NCBI RefSeq assembly: GCF_014196625.1
Contig: NZ_JACIDZ010000005.1
Coordinates: 186,001-250,000, forward strand
Origin: Martelella radicis
Lineage (GTDB): Bacteria; Pseudomonadota; Alphaproteobacteria; Rhizobiales; Rhizobiaceae
Length of the DNA: 64,000 bases
Direction: 5' to 3'
Shown: piece after piece, positions 22,327-49,753 of the stretch
Numbering within the stretch: position 1 is the stretch's first letter
Layout of the letters: each line of letters opens with the position of its first letter
Made by a program: the position numbers and the translations under genes
The notes under the pieces: model-generated
The model's database searches: none
Told to the model about the DNA's origin: nothing
Seen by the model: only the letters and a program-made list of their open reading frames with translations

Positions 22327-23373
22327 TCAATCGACCAGCGCTTGCTGACGCAACGTCAGCCCGTCCTTGTCGAAGCGATGCAGGTTCCTGGGATCGAAGG
22401 AAAGTCCGATGCTCGCCCCCGGCTCCGGCGCTTCCTGGCCTTCAGCCAGCACGAGAAATGTCCCGGCGCCTTCCACCGCCACATGCAGGAGCGAACTGCC
22501 GCCGGTATATTCGCTGAGGATCACCTGTCCGGTCAGCATGCCGTTCTCCGCCACCATTCGCAGATGCTCGGGCCGAATGCCGATCCTGTCGGCATCGCCG
22601 ACAGTCACCCCTGCCGCTTCAAGCGCCGGCGCAACGACCCTTGCGTCGCAGACATTCATTTTCGGGCTGCCGATGAACTGCGCGACGAACACATTGTCCG
22701 GGTGCGCGTAAAGCTCTTTCGGCGTGCCCACCTGCTCGATCAGCCCATCGCGCAGGACCACGATACGGTCGGCAAGCGTCATCGCCTCGATCTGGTCGTG
22801 GGTGACATAGATCATCGTGTTGCCGAGCCGGCCATGAAGGGCGGCGATCTCGGCGCGCATATGGACCCTGAGTTCCGCATCGAGGTTCGAAAGCGGTTCA
22901 TCGAACAGGAACACGTCGGGATCGCCGACGATCGCGCGACCGATCGCCACGCGCTGCCGCTGCCCGCCGGAAAGTTCGCGGGGATAACGCTCAAGCAGCG
23001 TTTCAAGCTGCAGTGTCTTTGCCGCAGCGTCGACCTTGCGGGCGATCGCGTCCGGCTTTTCCTTGCGCACCTTGAGGCCGAAGCCCATATTCTGGCGGAC
23101 CGTCAGATGCGGGTAGAGCGCGTAGGACTGGAACACCATGGCGACGCCGCGCTTTGCCGCCTGCACCTCGTTCATCCGACGCTCGCCAATGAAAAGGTCG
23201 CCGCTGGTGATATCTTCCAGGCCTGCAATCATGCGCAGGAGAGTGGACTTGCCGCAGCCGGAAGGCCCAACGAAAACGATGAACTCGCCGTCATGGATGT
23301 CGAGGTCGATACCGTGGATGACCTCGGCCTTTCCGAAGGACTTGGTTACGGTGTTGAGCTTGAGATTACTCAT
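22327..23373 (-). CDS. ABC sugar transporter ATPase, UgpC/MalK family
   Basis: A 348-residue ATPase starting at ATG 23373 with AAAGG upstream. It has Walker A GPSGCGKST, Q-loop FQSYALYPHLTV, signature LSGGQRQRVAIG, Walker B VFLFDEPLSNLD, switch His THDQIEAM, and a C-terminal TOBE/MalK regulatory domain (about 235-348; IGRPEHLRM-like IGIRPEHLRM). It is the last gene of the minus-strand sugar-acid operon (28890 down to 22327) and energises the permeases at 23400-25171. Confidence 0.93.
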   Translation of the reverse strand: MSNLKLNTVTKSFGKAEVIHGIDLDIHDGEFIVFVGPSGCGKSTLLRMIAGLEDITSGDLFIGERRMNEVQAAKRGVAMVFQSYALYPHLTVRQNMGFGLKVRKEKPDAIARKVDAAAKTLQLETLLERYPRELSGGQRQRVAIGRAIVGDPDVFLFDEPLSNLDAELRVHMRAEIAALHGRLGNTMIYVTHDQIEAMTLADRIVVLRDGLIEQVGTPKELYAHPDNVFVAQFIGSPKMNVCDARVVAPALEAAGVTVGDADRIGIRPEHLRMVAENGMLTGQVILSEYTGGSSLLHVAVEGAGTFLVLAEGQEAPEPGASIGLSFDPRNLHRFDKDGLTLRQQALVD

Positions 23374-23399: not shown

Positions 23400-24251
23400 T
23401 CAGCCCTTCACTCCGGACATTGCGAAACTTTCGATGATCTGCCGCTGCGCGATCAGGTAGACGATCAGGATCGGCACCACGGCGAGGCTGGTGGCGGCAA
23501 GCTGGAGATGCCAGAGCGGCGCGCCATAGGGATCGGTGAAATTGGAAAGCGCCAGCGGCAGCGTGAATTTCTCCAGGCTGGACAGGAACACCAGCGGCTC
23601 GAGGAAGAGGTTCCACGAAAACAGGAAGGTGATGATCGCGACCGCCGCGAGAGCCGGCTTCGACATCGGGATCGCGATCTTCCACCAGATGCCGAACCGC
23701 GACAGGCCATCCATCTTGCCGGCTTCCTCAAGCTCCTTGGGAAGCGAGACGAAATATTGCCGCATCAGGAAGGTTGCCATCACCCCGTGCGGACCGAAAA
23801 CCGGCAGCACGATCAGGGGAATATGGGTGTCCATCACGTTCAGCCATTTCATCAGGAAGAAATTCGGAACGATCGTCACTTCCTCCGGCACCATCAGCGC
23901 CGACATCAAGAACAACATCAACAGGCCCGCACCGGCAAAGCGCATGCGCGCCAGCGCGTAACCCGCCAGCGAGGAAATGAAGAGCGTCAGTCCCGTGACC
24001 GCAAGCGCGATATAGATCGAGTTGAAATACTGGCGCGCGAAGGGCTGGTACTCGAAGACCTCGACGAAGTTGGTCCAGCGCCAGACCGTCGGGATCAGGC
24101 TCGGCTGGCCGAAGATCTCGTTGGCGTTCTTGAACGCAGACGACAGCATCCAGAGGAAGGGAAATATGAACGGCACGGAAACCACGCCGAGCGCGACTAC
24201 CCAGCAGATTTTCGATATTTTGCGGGCCTGGCCGGTTGTCAGTTCCATCAC
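23400..24251 (-). CDS. ABC sugar transporter permease, MalG type
   Basis: A 283-residue permease with six spans and the EAA loop ELEEAGKMDGLSRFGIWWKIAIPMSKPAL. The start ATGATG at 24251/24248 overlaps the stop of the MalF-type gene by four bases. Late in the chain, FLFSWNLFLEPLVFL is typical for carbohydrate-uptake-1 permeases. Confidence 0.92.
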   Translation of the reverse strand: MMELTTGQARKISKICWVVALGVVSVPFIFPFLWMLSSAFKNANEIFGQPSLIPTVWRWTNFVEVFEYQPFARQYFNSIYIALAVTGLTLFISSLAGYALARMRFAGAGLLMLFLMSALMVPEEVTIVPNFFLMKWLNVMDTHIPLIVLPVFGPHGVMATFLMRQYFVSLPKELEEAGKMDGLSRFGIWWKIAIPMSKPALAAVAIITFLFSWNLFLEPLVFLSSLEKFTLPLALSNFTDPYGAPLWHLQLAATSLAVVPILIVYLIAQRQIIESFAMSGVKG

Positions 24252-25171
24252 GCCGATCCCTTCTGCCTGAGCATGACCTGCACCAGCGTCAGCACCAGAA
24301 CGATCACGAACATGATCATGGCGAGCGCCGAGGCGTAGCCGACATTGAAAAACTCAAAGGCCTGCTGGTAGATGTAGAAGGCAAGCACCAGCGTGCCGTT
24401 TTCCGGTCCGCCGCCGGTCATCAGATAGATGTGGTCGAACACCTTGAACGAGCCGATCGTGGTGATGACCATGATGATCAGCGTGCTCGGCGCCAGAAGC
24501 GGCCAGGTGACCATGGTGAAGATCTGCCAGCGACCGGCGCCCTCAAGGCGGGCTGCTTCCTCATAGTCTCGCGGAATGGCCTGGAGCGCTGCGATGTAGA
24601 GGATCATGTTGAGACCGACCATTTTCAGCACACGCGTGACGATCACGGCGGCCATCGCCCAGTTCGGCTCCCTGAGCCAGTTCGGGCCGTCGATCCCGAT
24701 CAGCGCCAACGTCTGGTTGACGGCGCCGGCTTCACCCTGAAGCAGGAATTTCCAGACGATCGCCCAGGCAACGGCGGAGGTGACGACCGGCGCGAAAAAC
24801 GCCGTGCGGAAGAACACCACGCCCCTGCCCGGCCGGCACAGCGCCAGCGCCAGTGCCAGCGCCAGCGCCATGTTGAGCGGCACCAGTCCTGCCGCGAAAA
24901 TCACCGAATTGCGAATGACGTGCCAGAAATCGGGGTTGACCGTCAGCGCATCGGCATAATTCGCCAGGCCGACATAGGTCATCTTCTGACTGAGCAGGTT
25001 CCACTCCGACAGCGAATAGATGACCACCGCGATCAGCGGGCCAAGGAAGAAGATCAGGAAACCGACGACCGTGGGACTGACGAACAGCCATCCCTCGAAC
25101 ATCTCCCTGCGGCGAAGGGTCAGCCACGGCACGCGTTGCGCCGTGGTCCCGTTTTCATTGGGGCTCGTCAT
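24248..25171 (-). CDS. ABC sugar transporter permease, MalF type
   Basis: A 307-residue permease: cytoplasmic N-terminus (MTSPNENGTTAQRVPWLTLRR, cited as residues 1-21 in part: WLTLRRREMFEGWLF), first span SPTVVGFLIFFLGPLIAVV, and the EAA loop DYEEAARLEGAGRWQIFTMVTWPLLAPS. It follows the binding-protein gene after ten bases. Confidence 0.92.
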   Translation of the reverse strand: MTSPNENGTTAQRVPWLTLRRREMFEGWLFVSPTVVGFLIFFLGPLIAVVIYSLSEWNLLSQKMTYVGLANYADALTVNPDFWHVIRNSVIFAAGLVPLNMALALALALALCRPGRGVVFFRTAFFAPVVTSAVAWAIVWKFLLQGEAGAVNQTLALIGIDGPNWLREPNWAMAAVIVTRVLKMVGLNMILYIAALQAIPRDYEEAARLEGAGRWQIFTMVTWPLLAPSTLIIMVITTIGSFKVFDHIYLMTGGGPENGTLVLAFYIYQQAFEFFNVGYASALAMIMFVIVLVLTLVQVMLRQKGSA

Positions 25172-25181
25172 TCCGTCTTAC

Positions 25182-26426
25182 TCAAAGCTGGTTTTCGATC
25201 GACGCGCAGACAGCCTCAAGCGCTGCCGGCACATCGGCATCGGCCCGCCACAAGGCATCCATGCGGGGCTTCATGGCGGCATAGATCTGCGCATAATTCG
25301 CATGGCTCGGAAGCACGCGACCTTCTTCGATCGCCTCGCTGACATAGGCCATCTGCTCCGGCGAGATCAGCTTGTTGGCCTCGATGAAGGTGTCGCTTTC
25401 CAGCACCGACTTGCGCGCCGGCGGGAAGAACTGCGACATGGTCTCGGAGTTTTCCGGGTTTGTCATATAGGCGATGAATTCCTTGGCCAGATCCTTCTGC
25501 TCACCCTGGGAGAACACCACAATGCCCGCCTGACCGATGACCGGCGATGCACCCGCCGGACCCGTCGGAAGCGGGGCGATGCCCCATTCGAAACCGGCAT
25601 CGGCAAGACGCGATGCGCGTGAAATCTGGTTGATCGTCATCGCAGAATTACCGGAGAAGAAGTCCCCGACCTCGCCGGGCGGAACGATCGACTTGTCGTC
25701 GAAAACCATGTCGTGGAGCTGGGTGACTGCGGCGACGGCTTCAGGCTTGTTGAAGCCGCATTCGCCATCCTGCCAGGCAAAGCCGCCATAGGCGCGGATC
25801 GGCGGCATCAGCGCATGCATGATCCGCGAATCGTAACCTTGGCCGTCCTTGAACTCGAAACCCCATTTGCCGTCATTGGCAGCCGTCAGCGCCGCTGCGA
25901 CTTCCTGGAATTTCTCCATGTCCCACGCGCCCTTTTCGGCAAGCTCGGCCGGCGTTTCGAGACCGGCGGCCTCGAACATGTCCTTGTTGTAGTAGATCAT
26001 GAAGGGCGAGGTCGAGAACGGCAGGCCGTTGATGACCTCGCCGTCGGTCCAAAGCCCCATGGCCGGCTCGGAAAAGTCTGCCAGATCGTAACCATCGGTG
26101 GCTTCCAGCGCAGGGCGCAAATCCTCGATCACGCCCGCCTCGGCAAAACCGGGCGTCACGTCTTCGAACATCCAGCCAAGATCGGGCGGATTGCCGCCGG
26201 CAAGCTGGAATGTCAGCTTCTGGGTATAGTCGGCCGCCGGGATGGTCTCGTACACGACCTTCACGTCCGGATGGGTTTCGGTAAAGCCTTCCGCGATCGC
26301 ATTGAACATTGCAAGATGCGCGTCATTGCCGGTCCACAACGTGAACCGCAGCTCCTCCGCCGACAGCGATCCGGCAGCAAGCAGACTTGCGGCGGCCGTC
26401 GTAAAAAGAAGTGATTTCATTCTCAT
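25182..26426 (-). CDS. ABC sugar transporter substrate-binding protein, family 1
   Basis: A 414-residue periplasmic protein. ATG 26426 is chosen because GGAGGAG lies six bases upstream. Signal peptide at 1-24 (MRMKSLLFTTAAASLLAAG, cleavage near LSAEE). The mature part is a family 1 sugar-binding protein (LRFTLWTGNDAHLAMFNAIA, PPDLGWMFEDVTPGFAEAG, SPFMIYYNKDMFEAAGLETP, FIAYMTNPENSETMSQF). Its neighbours suggest an aldose, aldonate or an oligosaccharide that yields one. Confidence 0.92.
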   Translation of the reverse strand: MRMKSLLFTTAAASLLAAGSLSAEELRFTLWTGNDAHLAMFNAIAEGFTETHPDVKVVYETIPAADYTQKLTFQLAGGNPPDLGWMFEDVTPGFAEAGVIEDLRPALEATDGYDLADFSEPAMGLWTDGEVINGLPFSTSPFMIYYNKDMFEAAGLETPAELAEKGAWDMEKFQEVAAALTAANDGKWGFEFKDGQGYDSRIMHALMPPIRAYGGFAWQDGECGFNKPEAVAAVTQLHDMVFDDKSIVPPGEVGDFFSGNSAMTINQISRASRLADAGFEWGIAPLPTGPAGASPVIGQAGIVVFSQGEQKDLAKEFIAYMTNPENSETMSQFFPPARKSVLESDTFIEANKLISPEQMAYVSEAIEEGRVLPSHANYAQIYAAMKPRMDALWRADADVPAALEAVCASIENQL

Positions 26427-26454
26427 CGGGTTCTCCTCCCTTGATTGCATTTCT

Positions 26455-27366
26455 TCACTGCAATTCCTTCTGCCCGTGATCGTCGGGCAGAACACTGACC
26501 GGCGGGACAGGCATGCCCGCGACATCGCTCGCAAACATGAAAACCGCACCGGCAAGCGGCTCGTCAGCGGCGGTCCTGCCTTCGGGCAGGATCGACATGC
26601 TGGTGACGCAGATCGTTTTCAGGTCGTGGCCGCAAAAGGCCAGTTTCGTCGGGCGACTGACGGGCAGATCGATGTGAGCAAGCACTTCGCCTTCCGGCGA
26701 GAGGCGCGTGATCCGCCCCGCATCGATGCCGGCAAACCAGTAGCAGCCCTCGACATCCATCGCCGCGCCGTCCACACGCCCCTCCTGCGGGCGATGGAAC
26801 ACGCGGCGGTTGGAAAGCCGCCCGGAACCGCGATCAAGATCAAAGGCCCAGATCGTGTTGACCTCGGGATGGCTGTCAGCAAGGTAGAGCGTCGTTCCTT
26901 CGGGTGAGACGGCAAGCCCGTTCTGGGTCTGCAATCCGTCGAGTTCGGCAACGCCGCCGCTGCGGTCGAGACGGAACAGCCTGCCCGGCACGCCGGATGC
27001 GCGCGGTTCGGCCAGCGATCCCGTCCAGAACCGTCCGTCAAGATCAACGCAGCCATCATTCATGCGCCAGCCCGCATCCGGCATGGCCGGGCTCGCGATC
27101 GGCAACAGGCTGCCATCGCCCGCAAGCCGATGCCAGCCGGTCCCGGCCGCCACGATCAGATCCCCCTCGAGATCGCGCGCCAGCGCTGAAGGGGAAATAT
27201 CGAAAGACAATGTGGTGACCGGCCCGCCTGCAAGAGGCATGCGATGAAGCTTTCCCGCCGGAATATCCACCCAGGCGACCTCCCCGCTCTCGGGAAGCCA
27301 GAGCGGACCTTCGCCGACGATATCGGGCGACTTGTGCAGAACCCTGATTTCGGGCGCGCGCATCAT
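26455..27366 (-). CDS. SMP-30/gluconolactonase family sugar lactonase
   Basis: A 303-residue beta-propeller lactonase. Start ATG 27366 overlaps the stop of the SDR gene by four bases. Metal ligands are visible: Glu in DIVGEGPLW, Asn in WRMNDGCVDLDG, Asn in QTQNGLAVSPEG and Asp in GRVDGAAMDVEG. In this operon it would open the lactone made by the SDR and deliver an aldonate to the enolase-family dehydratases across the divergent promoter. Confidence 0.9.
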   Translation of the reverse strand: MMRAPEIRVLHKSPDIVGEGPLWLPESGEVAWVDIPAGKLHRMPLAGGPVTTLSFDISPSALARDLEGDLIVAAGTGWHRLAGDGSLLPIASPAMPDAGWRMNDGCVDLDGRFWTGSLAEPRASGVPGRLFRLDRSGGVAELDGLQTQNGLAVSPEGTTLYLADSHPEVNTIWAFDLDRGSGRLSNRRVFHRPQEGRVDGAAMDVEGCYWFAGIDAGRITRLSPEGEVLAHIDLPVSRPTKLAFCGHDLKTICVTSMSILPEGRTAADEPLAGAVFMFASDVAGMPVPPVSVLPDDHGQKELQ

Positions 27367-28142
27367 GTGCGCTCTCCCGGCAGACCGCCCGGCGCGTCGC
27401 CGAGGCTCCATCCGCCGTCGACGGGCACCGTTGCGCCGGTGATATAGGCGGCCTGATCCGAGCAGAACATCAGCACCGGCGCGACGCAATCGTCCGGCCT
27501 GCCCTGACGGCCCGCCGGGATCTTGGCCGTTACGGCGTTGCGGAAATCGGGATCGGCGTAGCGGGAAGCGGTGCGCTCGGTCTCGATCGCGCCGGGCGCG
27601 ATCGCGTTCAGCGTCACGCCCGATCCGGCGACATCGCGGGCGATGGCGGCAAGGGCGGTATATTGCGCGGATTTCAGGGCGGCATAGACCAGCGTCTCGG
27701 CGCGCGGGCGCGCGGCCATGATGCTGCCGACCGCAACCACCCGGCCCCAACCGCGTTCCGCCATGGGCGGCACCAGGGCCTGGCAGAGCGTCAGGAATGA
27801 CGTGAAATTGGCCTCGACATGACGGTTGACGGTTTCCTCGGTAACGGACTGCCAGGGACCGCGCTGCTCGATAGCAGCATTCGCAATCAGGATGTCGAGC
27901 GGTCCGCCTTCAAGCACCCTGGCGGCAAGCCCTGCCGCCGCTCCGGCTTCGGTAAAATCGGCCTCATGCGTTTCAGCCGCGGCGAGCGTCTCGCGCGCTC
28001 CGGCAGCGCCGTTCAGGTGGTGCAGGACGACGGTCGCGCCGGCGGCATCGAGCGCGCGCGCGATGGCGCGCCCGATGCCCTGATCGGCACCGGTCACAAG
28101 TGCGCGCCGGCCGGAAAGGAAACGCGGGTCAGTCATCGTCAT
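27363..28142 (-). CDS. Short-chain dehydrogenase/reductase, probable sugar dehydrogenase
   Basis: A 259-residue classical SDR: cofactor loop VTGADQGIGRAIA (residues 16-28), IANAAIEQ, the catalytic Ser in VGSIMAA and the YAALK (Y-x3-K) pair, then APGAIETE and the C-terminal GGWSLGDAPGG. The His-x-Leu context after beta-2 (VVLHHLN) suggests NADP+ or NAD+ without clear choice. The start overlaps the GntR stop by 14 bases; a second ATG at 28136 is possible. With a lactonase next door, the probable role is oxidation of an aldose at C1. Confidence 0.88.
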   Translation of the reverse strand: MTMTDPRFLSGRRALVTGADQGIGRAIARALDAAGATVVLHHLNGAAGARETLAAAETHEADFTEAGAAAGLAARVLEGGPLDILIANAAIEQRGPWQSVTEETVNRHVEANFTSFLTLCQALVPPMAERGWGRVVAVGSIMAARPRAETLVYAALKSAQYTALAAIARDVAGSGVTLNAIAPGAIETERTASRYADPDFRNAVTAKIPAGRQGRPDDCVAPVLMFCSDQAAYITGATVPVDGGWSLGDAPGGLPGERT

Positions 28143-28890
28143 CCGTCTCCATCTGATCGGCGACCTCGAAGGACGCGATGTCCGCGGCCTTGTAGTGATC
28201 GTCGATCATGCGGACGGCTTCTTCGACATTGCCATCGCGGATGGCGGCATAAAGCGCCTCATGCCGGGCGACGGTGCGGTCCCAGTCCTCCGCCGTCCTG
28301 TTGGACCGGCGCGAGAACAGTTCCGAGACCTCACGCTGGACAGAGCGCAGCCCCTCGCCCTGCATCCGGATCATGGAGTTGCCTGTGGCTTCGGCCATGC
28401 CGAGGTGGAAGGCAATGTCGGCCTCGATGAACAGCTCCGCCTGACCCAGCCCCTCGCGCATGGCTTGCGCCGCCTTGGCCATCTGCTGCACGCCTTTTTC
28501 GGCGCGGCGCTCTGCGGCCAGACGGGCAATGCCGCTCTCGAAGAGGTGGCGCATCTCGTTGGCCTCGCGCAGGCGGGTCAGGCTCGAGCGCACGGCGTAG
28601 CCATATATACGGTCAAGCGGCTCCCCGGTGATGGCGGTGGCGCGGGCAACCTTGCCGCGCTGCGTCTGGATCAGACCGACGCCGGAAAGCTGCCGCAGCG
28701 CTTCGCGCGCGATCGGCTTGCTGACACCGAATTCACGCGCGATCTCACCCTCCGAGGGGAGCGGATCGCCGGGCGTGATGCGGCCGTCGAAAAGCGCGGC
28801 AGCAATGACATCGGATACCGCATCGGCAAGCCGCGGCGGCGTTGCCAGCTTGGTCGCGAAAAAGGGCTTTTCTGTCGGAGCGTCAGTCAT
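28129..28890 (-). CDS. GntR/FadR (FCD)-family regulator of the sugar-acid locus
   Basis: A 253-residue regulator. ATG 28890 is chosen for the AAGGA seven bases upstream. Winged helix at about 15-75 (LPSEGEIAREFGVSKPIAREALRQLSGVGLI, quoted in part: FGVSKPIAREALRQL). The FCD effector domain is at about 95-235, with the metal-type pattern (EADIAFHLGMAEATGN, and HEALYAAIRDGN). It is the first gene of the minus-strand operon and faces the dehydratase operon, so it likely controls both through the palindromes at 28933-28961. Confidence 0.9.
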   Translation of the reverse strand: MTDAPTEKPFFATKLATPPRLADAVSDVIAAALFDGRITPGDPLPSEGEIAREFGVSKPIAREALRQLSGVGLIQTQRGKVARATAITGEPLDRIYGYAVRSSLTRLREANEMRHLFESGIARLAAERRAEKGVQQMAKAAQAMREGLGQAELFIEADIAFHLGMAEATGNSMIRMQGEGLRSVQREVSELFSRRSNRTAEDWDRTVARHEALYAAIRDGNVEEAVRMIDDHYKAADIASFEVADQMETDDDD

Positions 28891-28932
28891 GGTTCCATCC
28901 TTCGATTGGCTGAGGGGTACCATGGCTTCACC

Positions 28933-28961
28933 AACATAGCAACTATGTTTTTAGGTTGCTA
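28933..28961. promoter_or_regulatory. Overlapping palindromes in the divergent GntR/dehydratase promoter
   Basis: AACATAG-CAA-CTATGTT (28933-28949) is a perfect 17-bp palindrome. TAGCAAC (28937-28943) and GTTGCTA (28955-28961) form a second inverted repeat with an 11-base gap, sharing the left half. Two interleaved sites midway between divergent units are what one expects for an autoregulated FCD-type GntR protein. Confidence 0.6.
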
Positions 28962-29010: not shown

Positions 29011-30159
29011 GTGCCCGATGCCGCCGCGCACCCGATTGCGGACATAATTGCCCACCCGCTTACGCAGAAATTGCCCACGCCCACAGAAACGTCCTGGGGG
29101 CGTTATGACGCGGTCTCGATCATGCTCGTCGAAGTGCGAACGACGACAGGCCTCACGGGTTATGGCGAAACGCTCGCGCGGTTTGCCCCCCGCGCCTATG
29201 CGGAACTGGTGGAGCGCGCGCTGAAGCCCCGGCTTGTCGGCCGCGATGCTCTCAACATCTTAGCCAACTGGGCGCTGATGCGCCGTGCGCTTTCCGGCCG
29301 CGCGGGAGGCATGCTGATCGAGGCCATCGCCGGCGTCGACATCGCGCTCTGGGACATTGCGGGCAAGGCCGCGGGATTACCGATCTACCGGCTTCTCGGC
29401 GGCGAGGGCCGCGCCTCGGTTCCCGTTTATGCGGCATCGGTCAGTTGGGACCCGCTCGAGGAGCGCGCAGCAGAGCAGGCGATCGCGTTCGCCCGGCGCG
29501 GATTTTCATCGATCAAGGTCAAGATCGGCCGCAGCCCCGAGGCTGCCTGCAAACGCATCGCCACGGTCAGGCAGGCCGTCGGCGACGGCGTGGAGCTCAC
29601 CGCCGATTCCAACTGGGCCTATAATCTCGATGAGGCGGTTATGGTCGGCAAGGCGCTGGAGCGCCATGGCTATGCCTGGTTCGAGGAACCTCTGCGCCCC
29701 GAAGACGAGGATGGCTATCGGCAGCTTCGCGCCCGCTGCGCCGTTCCGCTTGCCGCCGGCGAAAGCAATTACGCCGTTGATCAGGCGATGGCTCTGACCT
29801 GCGACCGGACGCTTTCCGTGCTTCAGCCCAATGTCACCCGTTCCGGCGGCATTACCGAGACACTGGCGATGGCCCGGCTCGCGGCCCAGCATGACGTCGC
29901 CTATGCGCCGCATGTGGGCATGTCGGGCATCATCTGCGAGGCGGCGAGCCTGCATGTAGCGGCGGCAGCCGCGAACACCCGGATCATGGAATGCGCGGCA
30001 AGCGCCAACCTGTTCAAGTCGGAGGTTGCGGATCTGCGTCCGGGCGGGGAACGCGCCGAGGGCGGAATGCTGAGCGTGCCGCAGGGACCGGGTCTCGGGA
30101 TCGAAATCAACTGGGAGGGCGTCGCCCGCATGGAAAAAATGGCAAGGGAGGCCGCCTGA
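29011..30159 (+). CDS. Enolase-superfamily (mandelate racemase-like) sugar-acid dehydratase, copy 1
   Basis: A 382-residue protein starting at GTG 29011 after a strong AGGAGGA. It has the capping domain (1-115) and the barrel with the KxK base (SIKVKIG), metal ligands in ADSNWAY, WFEEPL and AAGESNY, and the His of the dyad in YAPHVGMSG. The Asp expected to pair with that His, in the LQPDxxRxGG motif, is Asn (residue 274, LQPNVTRSGG), unlike in the next gene. It is closely related to copy 2 over the whole length (shared blocks such as SWGRYD, ETLARFAP, MRRALSGRAGGML). The predicted family reaction is abstraction of the proton alpha to a carboxylate, followed by dehydration or epimerisation; the substrate is unknown. 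Confidence 0.9.
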   Translation: MPDAAAHPIADIIAHPLTQKLPTPTETSWGRYDAVSIMLVEVRTTTGLTGYGETLARFAPRAYAELVERALKPRLVGRDALNILANWALMRRALSGRAGGMLIEAIAGVDIALWDIAGKAAGLPIYRLLGGEGRASVPVYAASVSWDPLEERAAEQAIAFARRGFSSIKVKIGRSPEAACKRIATVRQAVGDGVELTADSNWAYNLDEAVMVGKALERHGYAWFEEPLRPEDEDGYRQLRARCAVPLAAGESNYAVDQAMALTCDRTLSVLQPNVTRSGGITETLAMARLAAQHDVAYAPHVGMSGIICEAASLHVAAAAANTRIMECAASANLFKSEVADLRPGGERAEGGMLSVPQGPGLGIEINWEGVARMEKMAREAA

Positions 30160-31298
30160 TGGCCGTCGAGACGAATGGCGACATCCTGATCAGCGATGTC
30201 ATAGCGTATCCGTTGACGCAGAAATTGCCGCAGCCAACCATCACCTCGTGGGGGCGCTACGACGAGGTCTCGATCGTGCTCGTTGAAGTGCGCACGGATG
30301 CCGGCATCGTCGGCATTGGCGAGACGCTGGCGCGCTTTGCGCCGCATGCCTATGCCCATCTGATCGAGGATGCCCTGAAGCCGCGTCTTGTGGGGCAGCC
30401 CGCCGGCAATATCGCCGCCCACTGGGCCAACATGCGCCGCGCGCTTTCGGGGCGGGCGGGCGGCATGCTGCTCGAGGCGATTTCCGGCGTCGATATCGCG
30501 CTCTGGGATATTCTCGGCAAGGCGGCGGACCTTCCCGTCCATGCGCTCCTGGGCGGCATCGGCCGCAAGCGCATTGATGTCTATGCCGCCGCGGTGAACT
30601 GGCGCGACGACGCGCTGATGGAAGAGCAGCTCGATGAGCTTCTGGAGCAGGGCTTTCGCCAGATCAAGATCAAGATGGCCTCCCCGGTTGCCGATGCCTG
30701 CCGCAAGATCGAACTGATGCGTCGCCGCGCCGGCGACGAGGTCGCGCTGTGCGTCGACGCCAACTGGGCCTATGGCCTGGATGAGGCGGTCGAGGTTGGC
30801 AAGGCGCTGGCCGATTGCGGCTATGTCTGGTTCGAGGAGCCGCTTGCCCCGGAAAACGAGCAGGGCTACGAGGAACTCAGAAGGCTTTGCGATGTGCCGC
30901 TTGCCGCTGGCGAGAGCAATTTCACGGTCGACCAGGCCAAACGGCTGGTAACGTCTCGCACGCTTTCCGTATTGCAGCCGGATGTGGCACGCGCCGGCGG
31001 CATAACCGAGACCCGGCGCATGGCCGAGCTCGCACGCGCCTTCGATGTCGACTACGCGCCGCATATCGGCATGTCCGGCATCGTCTGCGAAACCGCTTCC
31101 GTCCATCTTTCGGCCGCGATGCCGAACTTCCGGATCATGGAGTGCGAGGGCGACCGCAGCCCGTTCAAGACCGAACTTGCCGATCTGGCCCCCGGCTGCC
31201 TGCGCCAGAAGGATGGCACGCTCGACGTGCCGCAGGGGCCGGGCCTCGGCCTTCAGATCAACTGGGATGCGGTCGAACGGCTGCGCGCGCCCGAATGA
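30159..31298 (+). CDS. Enolase-superfamily (mandelate racemase-like) sugar-acid dehydratase, copy 2
   Basis: A 379-residue paralogue of the preceding gene; ATG 30159 overlaps its stop by one base. The catalytic set is complete: QIKIKMA (KxK), VDANWAY, WFEEPL, AAGESNF, LQPDVARAGG with Asp 275, and YAPHIGMSG. It likely makes a 2-keto-3-deoxy acid from the aldonate delivered by the lactonase and SDR of the divergent operon. No aldolase or KDG kinase is in the locus, so the pathway must finish elsewhere. Confidence 0.92.
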   Translation: MAVETNGDILISDVIAYPLTQKLPQPTITSWGRYDEVSIVLVEVRTDAGIVGIGETLARFAPHAYAHLIEDALKPRLVGQPAGNIAAHWANMRRALSGRAGGMLLEAISGVDIALWDILGKAADLPVHALLGGIGRKRIDVYAAAVNWRDDALMEEQLDELLEQGFRQIKIKMASPVADACRKIELMRRRAGDEVALCVDANWAYGLDEAVEVGKALADCGYVWFEEPLAPENEQGYEELRRLCDVPLAAGESNFTVDQAKRLVTSRTLSVLQPDVARAGGITETRRMAELARAFDVDYAPHIGMSGIVCETASVHLSAAMPNFRIMECEGDRSPFKTELADLAPGCLRQKDGTLDVPQGPGLGLQINWDAVERLRAPE

Positions 31299-31318
31299 CA
31301 TCTTTCAAGGAGACCTCC

Positions 31319-32224
31319 ATGGCCAATGCCGCCGCACCGGACGCACTGGAAACCGCGATGCTGAGGGCGATTCGCCTTTCCGATCCCAATCTCAGCCGTT
31401 TCGATCCGCTGCGTCGGATCATCAGCCTAGATGATTTCTCGCGTGGCCATTGCGGCTGGTCTCAGCTTGTCGGCAATTACGAGGATACGCTCGACACCAT
31501 GCTGCCGGGTTACGCCCAGCACACCTCGGCGATGCTGTCGACCCTCAGCCACTGGGACGCCGGCTCCCACGGCGGCGTCGACAGCTCCTACGCCCTGAAG
31601 ATCGCGACCCGCGCCAGACCGGGCGCGCAGAACGTTGCGATCAAGCGGTTGACGGCGCGCGAGCGCGGCCCGATCCGCTTTGAATGCTACTTCACCTTCA
31701 AGCCCGAAGCCACGGAACTGAAGCTCAGCGAGACGGATGTCCGCTCCTTCGGCTTCCTGTTCGACCTGCAGGGCGGCGACACCGACGGCGATGTCGAGCG
31801 GGTGATGCCGCATGTGCGCTTTCTCAACGCCGAGCACGGCAAGCATATCCAGAAATGGCAGTTCAAGTCGAAGACCAGCGAGATGCTGAAGATCGGCGAC
31901 GACGACAAGACCGCGACCCATTATCACCTCTCGCCCGATGGCTGGGAAGACCTGCCCGGTGGCGACCAGCGGCTTTGCTATAACGAGATCGCGACCAAGG
32001 TGAACTGGAGCTATCTGCGGTTCGACTTCGATCTCGCCAGCATGCGGGCAACAAGCCTGCGCTGCAACGACCGCGAATTCGACGTGTCGGGCTTCGCGCC
32101 GATGCGCATTCCGGCGATGAAGAACCTCTGGTGCATGCTGAATTTCTGCCTGTTCGCCGAAACCGATGTCGCCAAGCGCGCTTTTCTCTATGTCGATTCA
32201 GTCTGCATCTCGGGGGATTTCTGA
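31319..32224 (+). CDS. Conserved protein of unknown function (possibly DUF6772)
   Basis: A 301-residue protein with AAGGAGA before ATG 31319. No signal peptide or membrane span. The sequence is rich in aromatic beta-strand patterns (CGWSQLVGNYEDTLD, HWDAGSHGGVDSSYALKIATRA, IRFECYFTFKPE, VNWSYLRFDFDL), suggesting a beta-sandwich or jelly-roll fold like carbohydrate-acting lyases or binding domains. The conserved HWDAGSHGG and CYNEI segments look like active-site loops. I believe it matches the unannotated family DUF6772, from memory. It lies 20 bases after the dehydratase and overlaps the next small gene by one base, so it belongs to the same catabolic operon. Confidence 0.75.
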   Translation: MANAAAPDALETAMLRAIRLSDPNLSRFDPLRRIISLDDFSRGHCGWSQLVGNYEDTLDTMLPGYAQHTSAMLSTLSHWDAGSHGGVDSSYALKIATRARPGAQNVAIKRLTARERGPIRFECYFTFKPEATELKLSETDVRSFGFLFDLQGGDTDGDVERVMPHVRFLNAEHGKHIQKWQFKSKTSEMLKIGDDDKTATHYHLSPDGWEDLPGGDQRLCYNEIATKVNWSYLRFDFDLASMRATSLRCNDREFDVSGFAPMRIPAMKNLWCMLNFCLFAETDVAKRAFLYVDSVCISGDF

Positions 32225-32559
32225 TGCTGCCGGAAAACATCACAGCCATCATCGCCCGCAATGAAAGCTGGAGCGGCCATGCCGCAACAGAACCATATGA
32301 GGCAGGTTGGGCGCATGAGGCGGTCATCTTCGCGCGCGCGCTGAAGACGCCGAAAGGCGTTCTGCCAAAAGCCGTTGTCGAAATCTCGCCGGATGGCATC
32401 CACTGGACGGCGGAAGGAACGACCCTCAGCCTGCCGGAAGCCAGGGACGAGTTGACGGCGGCCAAGCTGTCGCATTTCGGCGGCTGGCTCCGCCTCTCCG
32501 CCGAGTTGCCGGAGGGGTCGGAGATCACCGTTCTGGTCACGTTGCATTTGAAAGCTTGA
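32224..32559 (+). CDS. Small conserved protein of unknown function
   Basis: A 111-residue protein starting at ATG 32224 on the stop of the previous gene (TGATG overlap). No signal peptide. Strand-rich sequence with Trp and acidic/hydrophobic alternation (ESWSGHAATEPYEAGWAHEAVIFARAL, in part; VVEISPDGIHWTAEG; HFGGWLRLSAELPEGSEITV), compatible with a single small beta-sandwich. I do not recognise the family. The tight coupling to the 301-residue protein suggests the two products work together. The transposon scar begins about 70 bases downstream. Confidence 0.7.
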   Translation: MLPENITAIIARNESWSGHAATEPYEAGWAHEAVIFARALKTPKGVLPKAVVEISPDGIHWTAEGTTLSLPEARDELTAAKLSHFGGWLRLSAELPEGSEITVLVTLHLKA

Positions 32560-48820: not shown

Positions 48821-49753
48821 TCAGGCTGCCCAGTTCGCGTACCAGGCCTTGAACTGCTTGTACTGATCTTCGGCAAAAGCCTTTTGCGACGCCGTCAGGG
48901 CGTCGGTTTCGTTGAAATGCAGGCTATATTCCGCGTCACCATTCAGCACCATGAGATATTTGTAGAACAGCACGAGATCGGCGCCCTCATCGAACTTCGA
49001 AAGCACCATCAGCGCCTCCTCGAGTTCGCGCGCCTTGACGCGGGCTTCACTGTCGCCATCGGCAGCGGCCCTGCAGAGCGAGACGAGATGCAGGACTTCC
49101 TTGGGAAGGGCGTTACCGATGCCGGTAATCGCACCGGTGGCGCCGCATTTCACGAACCCATGGAAGACCTGGGTATCGACGCCAACCATCAATGTCAGGT
49201 CATCATCACCTGAGGTGATATTTTCCGCAGCATAGGATAGATCGGCCGCGCCGCCAAATTCCTTGAAGCCGATCAGGTTGGGATGGTCGGCACGCAGATC
49301 GAAGAACAGGTCCGCACGGGTTGCAAAGCCGTAATAGGGGCTGTTGTAGATCACTGCGGGAAGGCCGTTGGCGGCTTCGAGAATGGCCGAGAAATGCGCC
49401 TTCTGGGCCGAGACCGAGTTGCCGCGCGAGAGAACACGCGGAATGACCATCAGCCCCGCCGCGCCGACGCGGGCGGCATGGGCCGTGATCGCCACAGCCG
49501 ACTTCGTATTGATCGCGCCGGTTCCCACGATGACCGGAACGCCTGCCTCGACCAGCGCCTCGACGCCCTTCATCCGCTCCTCGTCGGTCAGCAGCGGCCA
49601 GTCGCCCATTGACCCGCAATAGACAACGGCGGACATGCCCGCATCGACAAGCTCCCGGCCCTTCCGCGCAAGCGCTACGAAATCCGGCTTCCGGTCATCC
49701 GTGCAGGGTGTCATCAATGCCGGAATACAGCCGGTGAAAATCGTATCGCTCAT
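48821..49753 (-). CDS. DapA-family lyase, probable pyrroline-4-hydroxy-2-carboxylate deaminase
   Basis: A 310-residue class I aldolase-fold protein. ATG 49753 is preceded by AAAGGA at eight bases. The Schiff-base Lys 164 lies in LIGFKEFGG and the catalytic Tyr 136 in VIYNSPYYG; the substrate loop GSMGDWPLLTDEER differs from the GTTGE loop of true DapA. Being co-transcribed with the hydroxyproline epimerase, it most likely deaminates pyrroline-4-hydroxy-2-carboxylate to 2-oxoglutarate semialdehyde, the substrate of the ALDH at 57436. Another keto-acid lyase activity is possible. Confidence 0.82.
   Translation of the reverse strand: MSDTIFTGCIPALMTPCTDDRKPDFVALARKGRELVDAGMSAVVYCGSMGDWPLLTDEERMKGVEALVEAGVPVIVGTGAINTKSAVAITAHAARVGAAGLMVIPRVLSRGNSVSAQKAHFSAILEAANGLPAVIYNSPYYGFATRADLFFDLRADHPNLIGFKEFGGAADLSYAAENITSGDDDLTLMVGVDTQVFHGFVKCGATGAITGIGNALPKEVLHLVSLCRAAADGDSEARVKARELEEALMVLSKFDEGADLVLFYKYLMVLNGDAEYSLHFNETDALTASQKAFAEDQYKQFKAWYANWAA

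Follow-up and report, generated by a model that had tools for sequence, protein, structure and literature searches.

What do two coupled genes in a sugar-acid operon of Martelella radicis do? They lie in the window, by which we mean the whole stretch of 64,000 nucleotides that was analysed. The original prediction was that they supply chemistry missing from the operon, perhaps as a cytoplasmic glycan lyase or hydrolase with an accessory domain, or as a lactone-processing enzyme. We tentatively favor the idea that the pair forms a carbohydrate-active enzyme of two subunits in the cytoplasm, most likely a glycoside hydrolase, acting on an imported sugar. We give this reading a little less than an even chance, and its catalysis and its complex are what we infer. 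The features at the center of the question are as follows:

31308 to 31312, plus strand: AGGAG, likely ribosome-binding site of the DUF6772 gene (sequence)
31319 to 32224, plus strand: DUF6772 gene, 301 aa (Pfam PF20562), predicted concanavalin-A-like beta-sandwich, probably cytoplasmic
32222 to 32226, plus strand: TGATG stop/start overlap of the two genes (sequence)
32224 to 32559, plus strand: small partner gene, 111 aa, predicted DUF6385-like beta-sandwich

The description of the pair itself has held up. The open reading frames at 31319-32224 and 32224-32559 have one base in common, the A of TGATG at 32224, and this arrangement suggests that the large and small genes are translationally coupled. 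Both products are strand-rich in the predicted models. The segments HWDAGSHGG and CYNEI that had been singled out in the 301-residue protein are indeed present, with H84, C220, N222 and E223 invariant in 45 aligned homologues. With this base composition, the probability that a given start opens a frame of 300 codons by chance is about 2e-4, but homology is much stronger evidence that the genes are real: the large protein matches its Pfam family at E 1.9e-135, its relatives are 70-97% identical, and dN/dS is low. In five comparisons the large gene gives ratios of 0.09-0.14 and the small one ratios of 0.12-0.29; they are rough, since dS is above 1 in all five. Judged from their sequences, both are real, conserved genes. 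Neither protein has a hydrophobic N-terminal segment by hydropathy over the first 60 positions (the maximum over 15 residues is 0.73 in the large protein and 0.91 in the small one), so a cytoplasmic site is likely for both.

The large protein is a member of PF20562 (DUF6772) by the curated cut-off, scoring 451.1 bits where 27 are needed, and the match is full-length, with residues 16-301 covering profile positions 2-284 of 284. Pfam lists PF20562 as a domain of unknown function. The small protein scores 17.2 bits against PF19912 (DUF6385), below the cut-off of 26.8, and is not a member by the curated rule. However, 54 of the 55 aligned partner proteins match DUF6385 at E<=0.05, the best at 1.6e-6, so it is likely a remote relative of that family. 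(Besides the window sequence, the partner alignment contains 54 of the 62 rows that passed filtering; those omitted are five from plasmids and three others.) NCBIfam gave no match for either protein and a PDB sequence search none for the large one. Profile searches for a named family or a solved relative reached only E 0.48-0.82, and a search of the accessible literature found no paper naming DUF6772 or DUF6385. Across Pfam, NCBIfam, PDB and profile comparisons we found no tie of the large protein to any enzyme family. DUF6772 is a named, functionally uncharacterised family with a known type of fold.

The family is uncommon, being found in 3 of 398 genomes in an even sample of the phylum and in 3 of 385 in one of the class (the window genome is included in both). 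A scan of species genomes confirmed 162 relatives, and the best 80 of these 162 were used for the 80-locus counts below. These 80 are 70-97% identical to the large protein, and by their record titles they come from Alphaproteobacteria, among them Martelella, Rhizobium, Mesorhizobium, Bosea, Microvirga, Paracoccus and Salipiger. Six further alphaproteobacterial relatives (67-78% identity) and one from an actinomycete, Nonomuraea (35%), were found in plasmid records. Among 38 matches to two peptide patterns in viral contigs there was no true relative, and DUF6385 appeared in 0 of 200 genomes of the phylum and likewise in 0 of 14 controls, which makes that scan uninformative. One Chelativorans metagenome bin holds two DUF6772 loci (L009 and L015, 79% and 81% identical to the window), which are either a true second copy or the product of a mixed bin.

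How constant is the pairing? The 80 loci are L002-L081; the count leaves out L001 (the window itself), the plasmid loci L084-L088, and L082, L083 and L089-L097, where L082 and L097 are the genome record of L077 again at 100% identity. The small gene is present in all 80 (best 80 of 162), and so is the one-base overlap, as TGATG in 79 and TAATG in one. In Nonomuraea the partner, at 34% identity, lies directly downstream of the large gene without an overlap. Because the overlap is so constant and the partner is kept even there, we regard this as strong genomic evidence for a joint function: the two genes would form one functional unit, and their products may form a physical complex.

We turn to the predicted folds. 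An AlphaFold2 model of the large protein, made with 40 homologues, has a mean pLDDT of 70 and a pTM of 0.71, and residues 25-90 fall below 50. By Foldseek it belongs to the concanavalin-A-like class, where 55 matches reach E<=0.001, in alignments that are loose among the matches listed (query TM-score 0.25-0.39, rmsd 8 to 16 A). A second aligner gives Z 14.3 to a domain of BT_1020 and, among the matches listed, Z 13.3-14.1 to legume lectins, ERGIC-53 and relatives; these lectin alignments run over model residues from about 30 to 301 and superpose 172-193 residues at 3.2-4.2 A. With moderate confidence we assign the model to the concanavalin-A-like lectin/glucanase fold, a jelly-roll sandwich of two sheets. 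A pocket is not readable from it, given the pLDDT of 70, the low stretch at 25-90 and the loose Foldseek alignments. The small protein is modelled as a single beta-sandwich with a pLDDT of 96. It lies nearest to the C-terminal domain of XepA (Z 10.9) and to YomS (Z 10.6), PDB 6i56 and 6i5o, at 2.4 A over 95 residues. These phage-derived Bacillus proteins share only 5-10% identity with it. Modules of the carbohydrate-binding (CBM) type match lower, among many other sandwiches, and Foldseek gives just two matches at E<=0.001. The predicted sandwich resembles carbohydrate-binding modules, but it is a common one, and capsid, furin and spore proteins stand in the same match list.

It is important to realize that the fold match does not give the function, since lectin folds can also be purely binding. 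The main and serious rival to our reading, if an unlikely one, is that the pair is a non-catalytic cytoplasmic complex that buffers, senses or presents an imported sugar. The top fold matches of the large protein are mostly lectins among the matches listed (legume lectins, ERGIC-53, Emp46/47), and those of the partner include CBM-type sandwiches. YesU of Bacillus subtilis (PDB 1oq1), which we take to belong to DUF1961 (PF09224), offers a precedent. YesU is a concanavalin-A-like protein without a signal peptide, encoded beside a rhamnogalacturonan acetylesterase gene, and is reported to bind fucosylated glycans (PMC6120924). It has 220 residues and is mostly monomeric, and the authors propose that it is secreted and takes part in adhesion (PMC6120924). 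The likeness extends to a start/stop overlap with the next gene (PMC6120924). In YesU's case the product of that gene is a DUF624 protein, and no catalysis is known for YesU itself. The 301-residue protein has no Pfam match to PF09224; a relation by fold alone is possible. DUF1961 was found in none of 249 genomes scanned. Against a role in binding alone, 48 invariant columns, many of them charged, are probably more than lectins usually keep, and it would be unusual for a catabolic divergon to retain a pure binder at all of its loci.

These 48 positions, out of 301, do not vary among 45 homologues, one of which is as low as 37% in identity, and many are Arg, Lys, Asp or Glu. The DUF6772 alignment consists of the window sequence and 44 of the 45 rows that a similarity filter retained, most of them above 65% identity. 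Four of the 12 predicted strands analysed have conserved polar residues alternating on one side. In strand 118-129 the side carrying R120, E122, Y124, T126 and K128 has a mean conservation of 0.96, against 0.79 for the other side; the corresponding values are 0.95 and 0.81 for the strand with D149 and Q151, 0.99 and 0.77 for that with R161, H165 and R167, and 0.94 and 0.77 for that with Y232, D236 and D238. Strand 288-299 lacks such a bias (0.89 vs 0.87), as do several others. The conserved face could be the ligand or active-site face of the predicted fold, and its arginines suggest that the ligand of the large protein may be acidic. Membership of a glycoside hydrolase family on this fold takes two catalytic carboxylates and hydrolysis of a glycoside. 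E122, D149, D236 and D238, which lie on one face of a predicted sheet, are candidates only for the carboxylates.

Another possible reading is a lyase. Alginate lyases of family PL7 carry out beta-elimination on a similar fold, and the large protein might split a uronate-containing disaccharide in this way. The polysaccharide lyase vAL-1 is among its fold matches (E 1.8e-4, rank 25), R120, E122, H84 and Y232 are invariant, and an arginine-rich conserved face would suit a carboxylate. However, there is no Pfam match to PF08787 (PL7), and the hhalign comparison with that profile is an 18-column alignment at a probability of 0.06%, made against 15 of the 23 places found. An enzyme for unsaturated uronates was not seen among the annotated neighbour clusters (clusters 12, 14 and 17-20 fall outside them). 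We consider a lyase improbable. Comparison with DUF1080 (PF06439), taken up below, is similar, with no Pfam match and a 19-column hhalign alignment at 0.1% (against six of the 14 places found). Both profile comparisons used shallow alignments, with an effective diversity of 1.9 for DUF6772, and are weak evidence of absence. DUF6772 may be related to DUF1080 or PL7 by fold alone.

The remaining arguments come from the neighbourhood, which is a divergon in the window:

22327 to 23373, minus strand: importer ATPase, start codon uncertain (gene call)
23400 to 24251, minus strand: importer permease B (plasmid-record homologues are annotated carbohydrate ABC transporter permease)
24248 to 25171, minus strand: importer permease A (Pfam BPD_transp_1)
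25182 to 26429, minus strand: sugar-binding protein of a CUT1-type ABC importer, start codon uncertain (Pfam SBP)
26455 to 27366, minus strand: SMP-30/gluconolactonase-like protein, optional (Pfam)
27363 to 28142, minus strand: SDR oxidoreductase (Pfam)
28129 to 28923, minus strand: FadR/GntR-type regulator (Pfam GntR and FCD; the NanR subfamily match is below cut-off)
28935 to 28947, no strand: operator-like palindrome CATAGCAACTATG in the divergent promoter region
29011 to 30159, plus strand: MR/MLE enzyme, first copy, VLQPN (Pfam; motif from translation)
30159 to 31298, plus strand: MR/MLE (enolase-superfamily) enzyme, second copy, VLQPD (Pfam)

The importer ATPase clusters with the gene at 12326-13378 of L081 (Pfam ABC_tran/OB_MalK), and the PDB relatives of the sugar-binding protein are mostly sugar-binding proteins. 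The pair had been placed after the dehydratases. Two enolase-superfamily genes do precede it, and "dehydratase" is a likely name for them: both resemble sugar-acid dehydratases in NCBIfam, in matches that are all below the curated cut-offs. The first copy has VLQPN where the second has VLQPD, a difference that presumably falls at a catalytic position of MR/MLE enzymes, so the first copy may have a different reaction. Two MR/MLE copies stand directly before the pair in the window and in 6 of the 80 loci (L002, L004-L007 and L026; best 80 of 162).

The case for missing chemistry was that the operon lacks an aldolase, kinase or hydrolase. A Pfam scan of nine operon proteins indeed found no aldolase or kinase, but the argument is weak: the genome outside the operon has one KDPG-aldolase match and 11 DHDPS-family matches, so an aldolase need not come from the pair. 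One DHDPS/aldolase-family match lies in the window itself, outside the divergon, at 48995-49738 on the minus strand. Nothing points to the lactone processing that was also proposed, and the SMP-30 lactonase-like gene is present in only 22 of the 80 loci (best 80 of 162).

Counts of neighbours were made with codon-scored gene calls and tblastn over the 80 loci, and a stricter count of ortholog clusters took nine genes upstream and five downstream of the pair. By tblastn (best 80 of 162), both importer permeases are found in 76 loci, a sugar-binding protein of either type in 77, an MR/MLE enzyme in 78, the FadR/GntR regulator in 75 and some SDR in 75. Of the four loci without permeases, three are on short contigs (5.9, 8.2 and 11.7 kb) and one, L079, is near a contig end. 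The ortholog clusters for the same 80 give 73 for the SDR, 72 for GntR, 78 for MR/MLE, and 75 and 74 for the permeases. Homologues lying mostly outside sugar loci would have spoken against the original prediction; those examined sit in sugar-transport loci. In nine of the 80 loci, from Rhizobium and relatives (L010-L014, L016, L020, L021 and L039; best 80 of 162), an FAD-dependent oxidoreductase cluster (PF12831 in L010), followed by another SDR, lies downstream on the opposite strand.

Could the pair instead act after the MR/MLE enzyme, on a 2-keto-3-deoxy acid or a lactone? The MR/MLE gene is in 78 loci and immediately upstream of the pair in 50 of the 80 (best 80 of 162), which is what such a role would lead one to expect. 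However, L011 and L021 lack the MR/MLE gene and keep the importer, the SDR and the pair. The best MR/MLE matches in their genomes are 34% identical and none is above 38%, compared with 73% for the ortholog in a Rhizobium comparison genome; these remote paralogues could substitute. The aldolase families elsewhere in the genome also count against this role, and we know of no aldolase or lactonase with a concanavalin-A-like fold. We think it very improbable. The pair appears to be independent of the MR/MLE enzyme and to follow the importer, since in L011 and L021 it is kept with remote paralogues only.

A different order of steps would have the SDR oxidise C3 of an imported glycoside and the DUF6772 protein cleave the 3-keto sugar. 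DUF1080 proteins, which also have a concanavalin-A-like fold, provide the model. One member of DUF1080 has been characterised as a 3-ketotrehalose hydrolase and a second is proposed to act on 3'-ketolactose, both in bacterial sugar catabolism (PMC9007349). The Caulobacter DUF1080 protein described there carries a putative signal peptide and acts together with LacABC (PMC9007349). An SDR cluster near the pair in 73 of the 80 loci (best 80 of 162) agrees with this order. Against it stand the short DUF1080 alignment given above, a LacABC-type dehydrogenase not seen among the annotated neighbour clusters (again with clusters 12, 14 and 17-20 outside), and the five of 80 loci (best 80 of 162) without an SDR. 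Our search for literature on 3-ketoglycoside hydrolases with SDRs found nothing usable. We judge the 3-keto route quite improbable.

These five loci (L063, L066, L070, L075 and L081) have no tblastn match to GntR or to any of three SDR queries. They carry instead genes for an RpiR-type regulator, a DoeB-like deacylase, a PLP enzyme, a Rid-family protein and an MlrC-type protein. The annotation is from L081, with presence checked in all five, and the PLP enzyme of L081 is near CuyA/D-cysteine desulfhydrase (D-cysteate sulfo-lyase). The L094 genome has the MR/MLE enzyme, SDR, importer, RpiR regulator, deacylase and PLP enzyme all together. The deacylase and PLP genes hint that the compound imported there may be an amide of a sugar acid and an amino acid, and because five of the 80 loci (best 80 of 162) have them and lack SDR and GntR, the chemistry downstream varies between loci. 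In Nonomuraea a divergent MFS sugar-type transporter stands on one side of the pair and a LacI regulator on the other, and the 30.9 kb read there contain no MR/MLE match. Taken together, L011 and L021, the variant loci and Nonomuraea make a transporter with the pair the most constant association. What appears to be new here is the constant coupling of DUF6772 to a DUF6385-like partner, and a tie to the importer rather than to MR/MLE.

The divergent promoter region also holds an operator-like site. Among 85 loci, 73 have a GntR-divergent region short enough to count, and CNTAGNNNCTANG is present in 47 of the 73, as compared with 12 matches in the rest of these loci, which comes to 1.48 Mb. The 26 without it are 21 loci of the Bosea-type arrangement (for example L050 and L052-L057), L046, L047 and the plasmid loci L085-L087. 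Over the whole genome of 4.99 Mb, CNTAGCAACTANG is matched once and a control pattern twice. In L011 and L021 the site is between the GntR gene and the DUF6772 gene, just before the latter. We read the palindrome as a putative operator of the GntR-type regulator. A second palindrome, ATCAC-N4-GTGAT, is found in seven of the 73 regions, L003 among them, and may be an alternative site in some loci.

We believe the glycoside hydrolase reading is supported by the overlap in 80 of 80 loci, the importer in 76 of 80, the pair kept in L011, L021 and Nonomuraea, the concanavalin-A-like matches at Z 13-14, the one-sided conservation in four strands, the operator-like site and the N-termini. It is weakened by the want of a link to an enzyme family, by lectin folds that are also binders, by the moderate model and its loose Foldseek alignments, by the strands that lack a one-sided bias, by a neighbourhood sample made of the closest 80 of 162 relatives, and by the five of 80 loci with other chemistry. 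The proposal made at the outset, a glycan hydrolase or lyase in the cytoplasm with an accessory domain, is partly supported: the folds, the N-termini and the sugar-transport loci agree with it, and its catalytic residues are at most candidates.

Under this glycoside hydrolase reading the CUT1-type importer would bring in a glycoside or conjugate, probably acidic, and the pair would act on it first, releasing a sugar or sugar acid. The substrate site of the 301-residue subunit would be formed by R120, E122, Y124, K128, D149, Q151, R161, H165, R167, Y232, D236, D238 and N275, and the 111-residue sandwich, like a carbohydrate module, would complete or stabilise that subunit. Non-phosphorylative sugar oxidation supplies the pathway logic for the order of SDR, SMP-30 protein and MR/MLE enzyme. 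The SDR, joined by the SMP-30 protein in loci that have it, would oxidise the released sugar, the MR/MLE enzyme would dehydrate the product to a 2-keto-3-deoxy acid, and general aldolases would split that acid. In this scheme we infer the catalysis, the type of cleavage, the acidity of the substrate, the physical complex and the order of the steps. A bolder version makes the pair a new, obligate two-subunit family of intracellular carbohydrate-active enzymes on acidic glycosides or sugar-acid conjugates, with an active site built from both chains, residues 25-90 folding on the partner, and supply by the CUT1 importer in Alphaproteobacteria and by another transporter in Actinomycetota. In this extended form we hold the idea to be unlikely.

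Two proteins known only as DUF6772 and "hypothetical protein" belong constantly to a sugar-uptake locus in a range of Alphaproteobacteria from soil, plants and the sea. If the pair is an enzyme, it would represent a carbohydrate-active family of two chains that has yet to be described, and the adjoining importer gene would give a direct handle on its substrate. If it only binds, it would join YesU among lectin-like proteins without a signal peptide that are tied to sugar-degradation genes.
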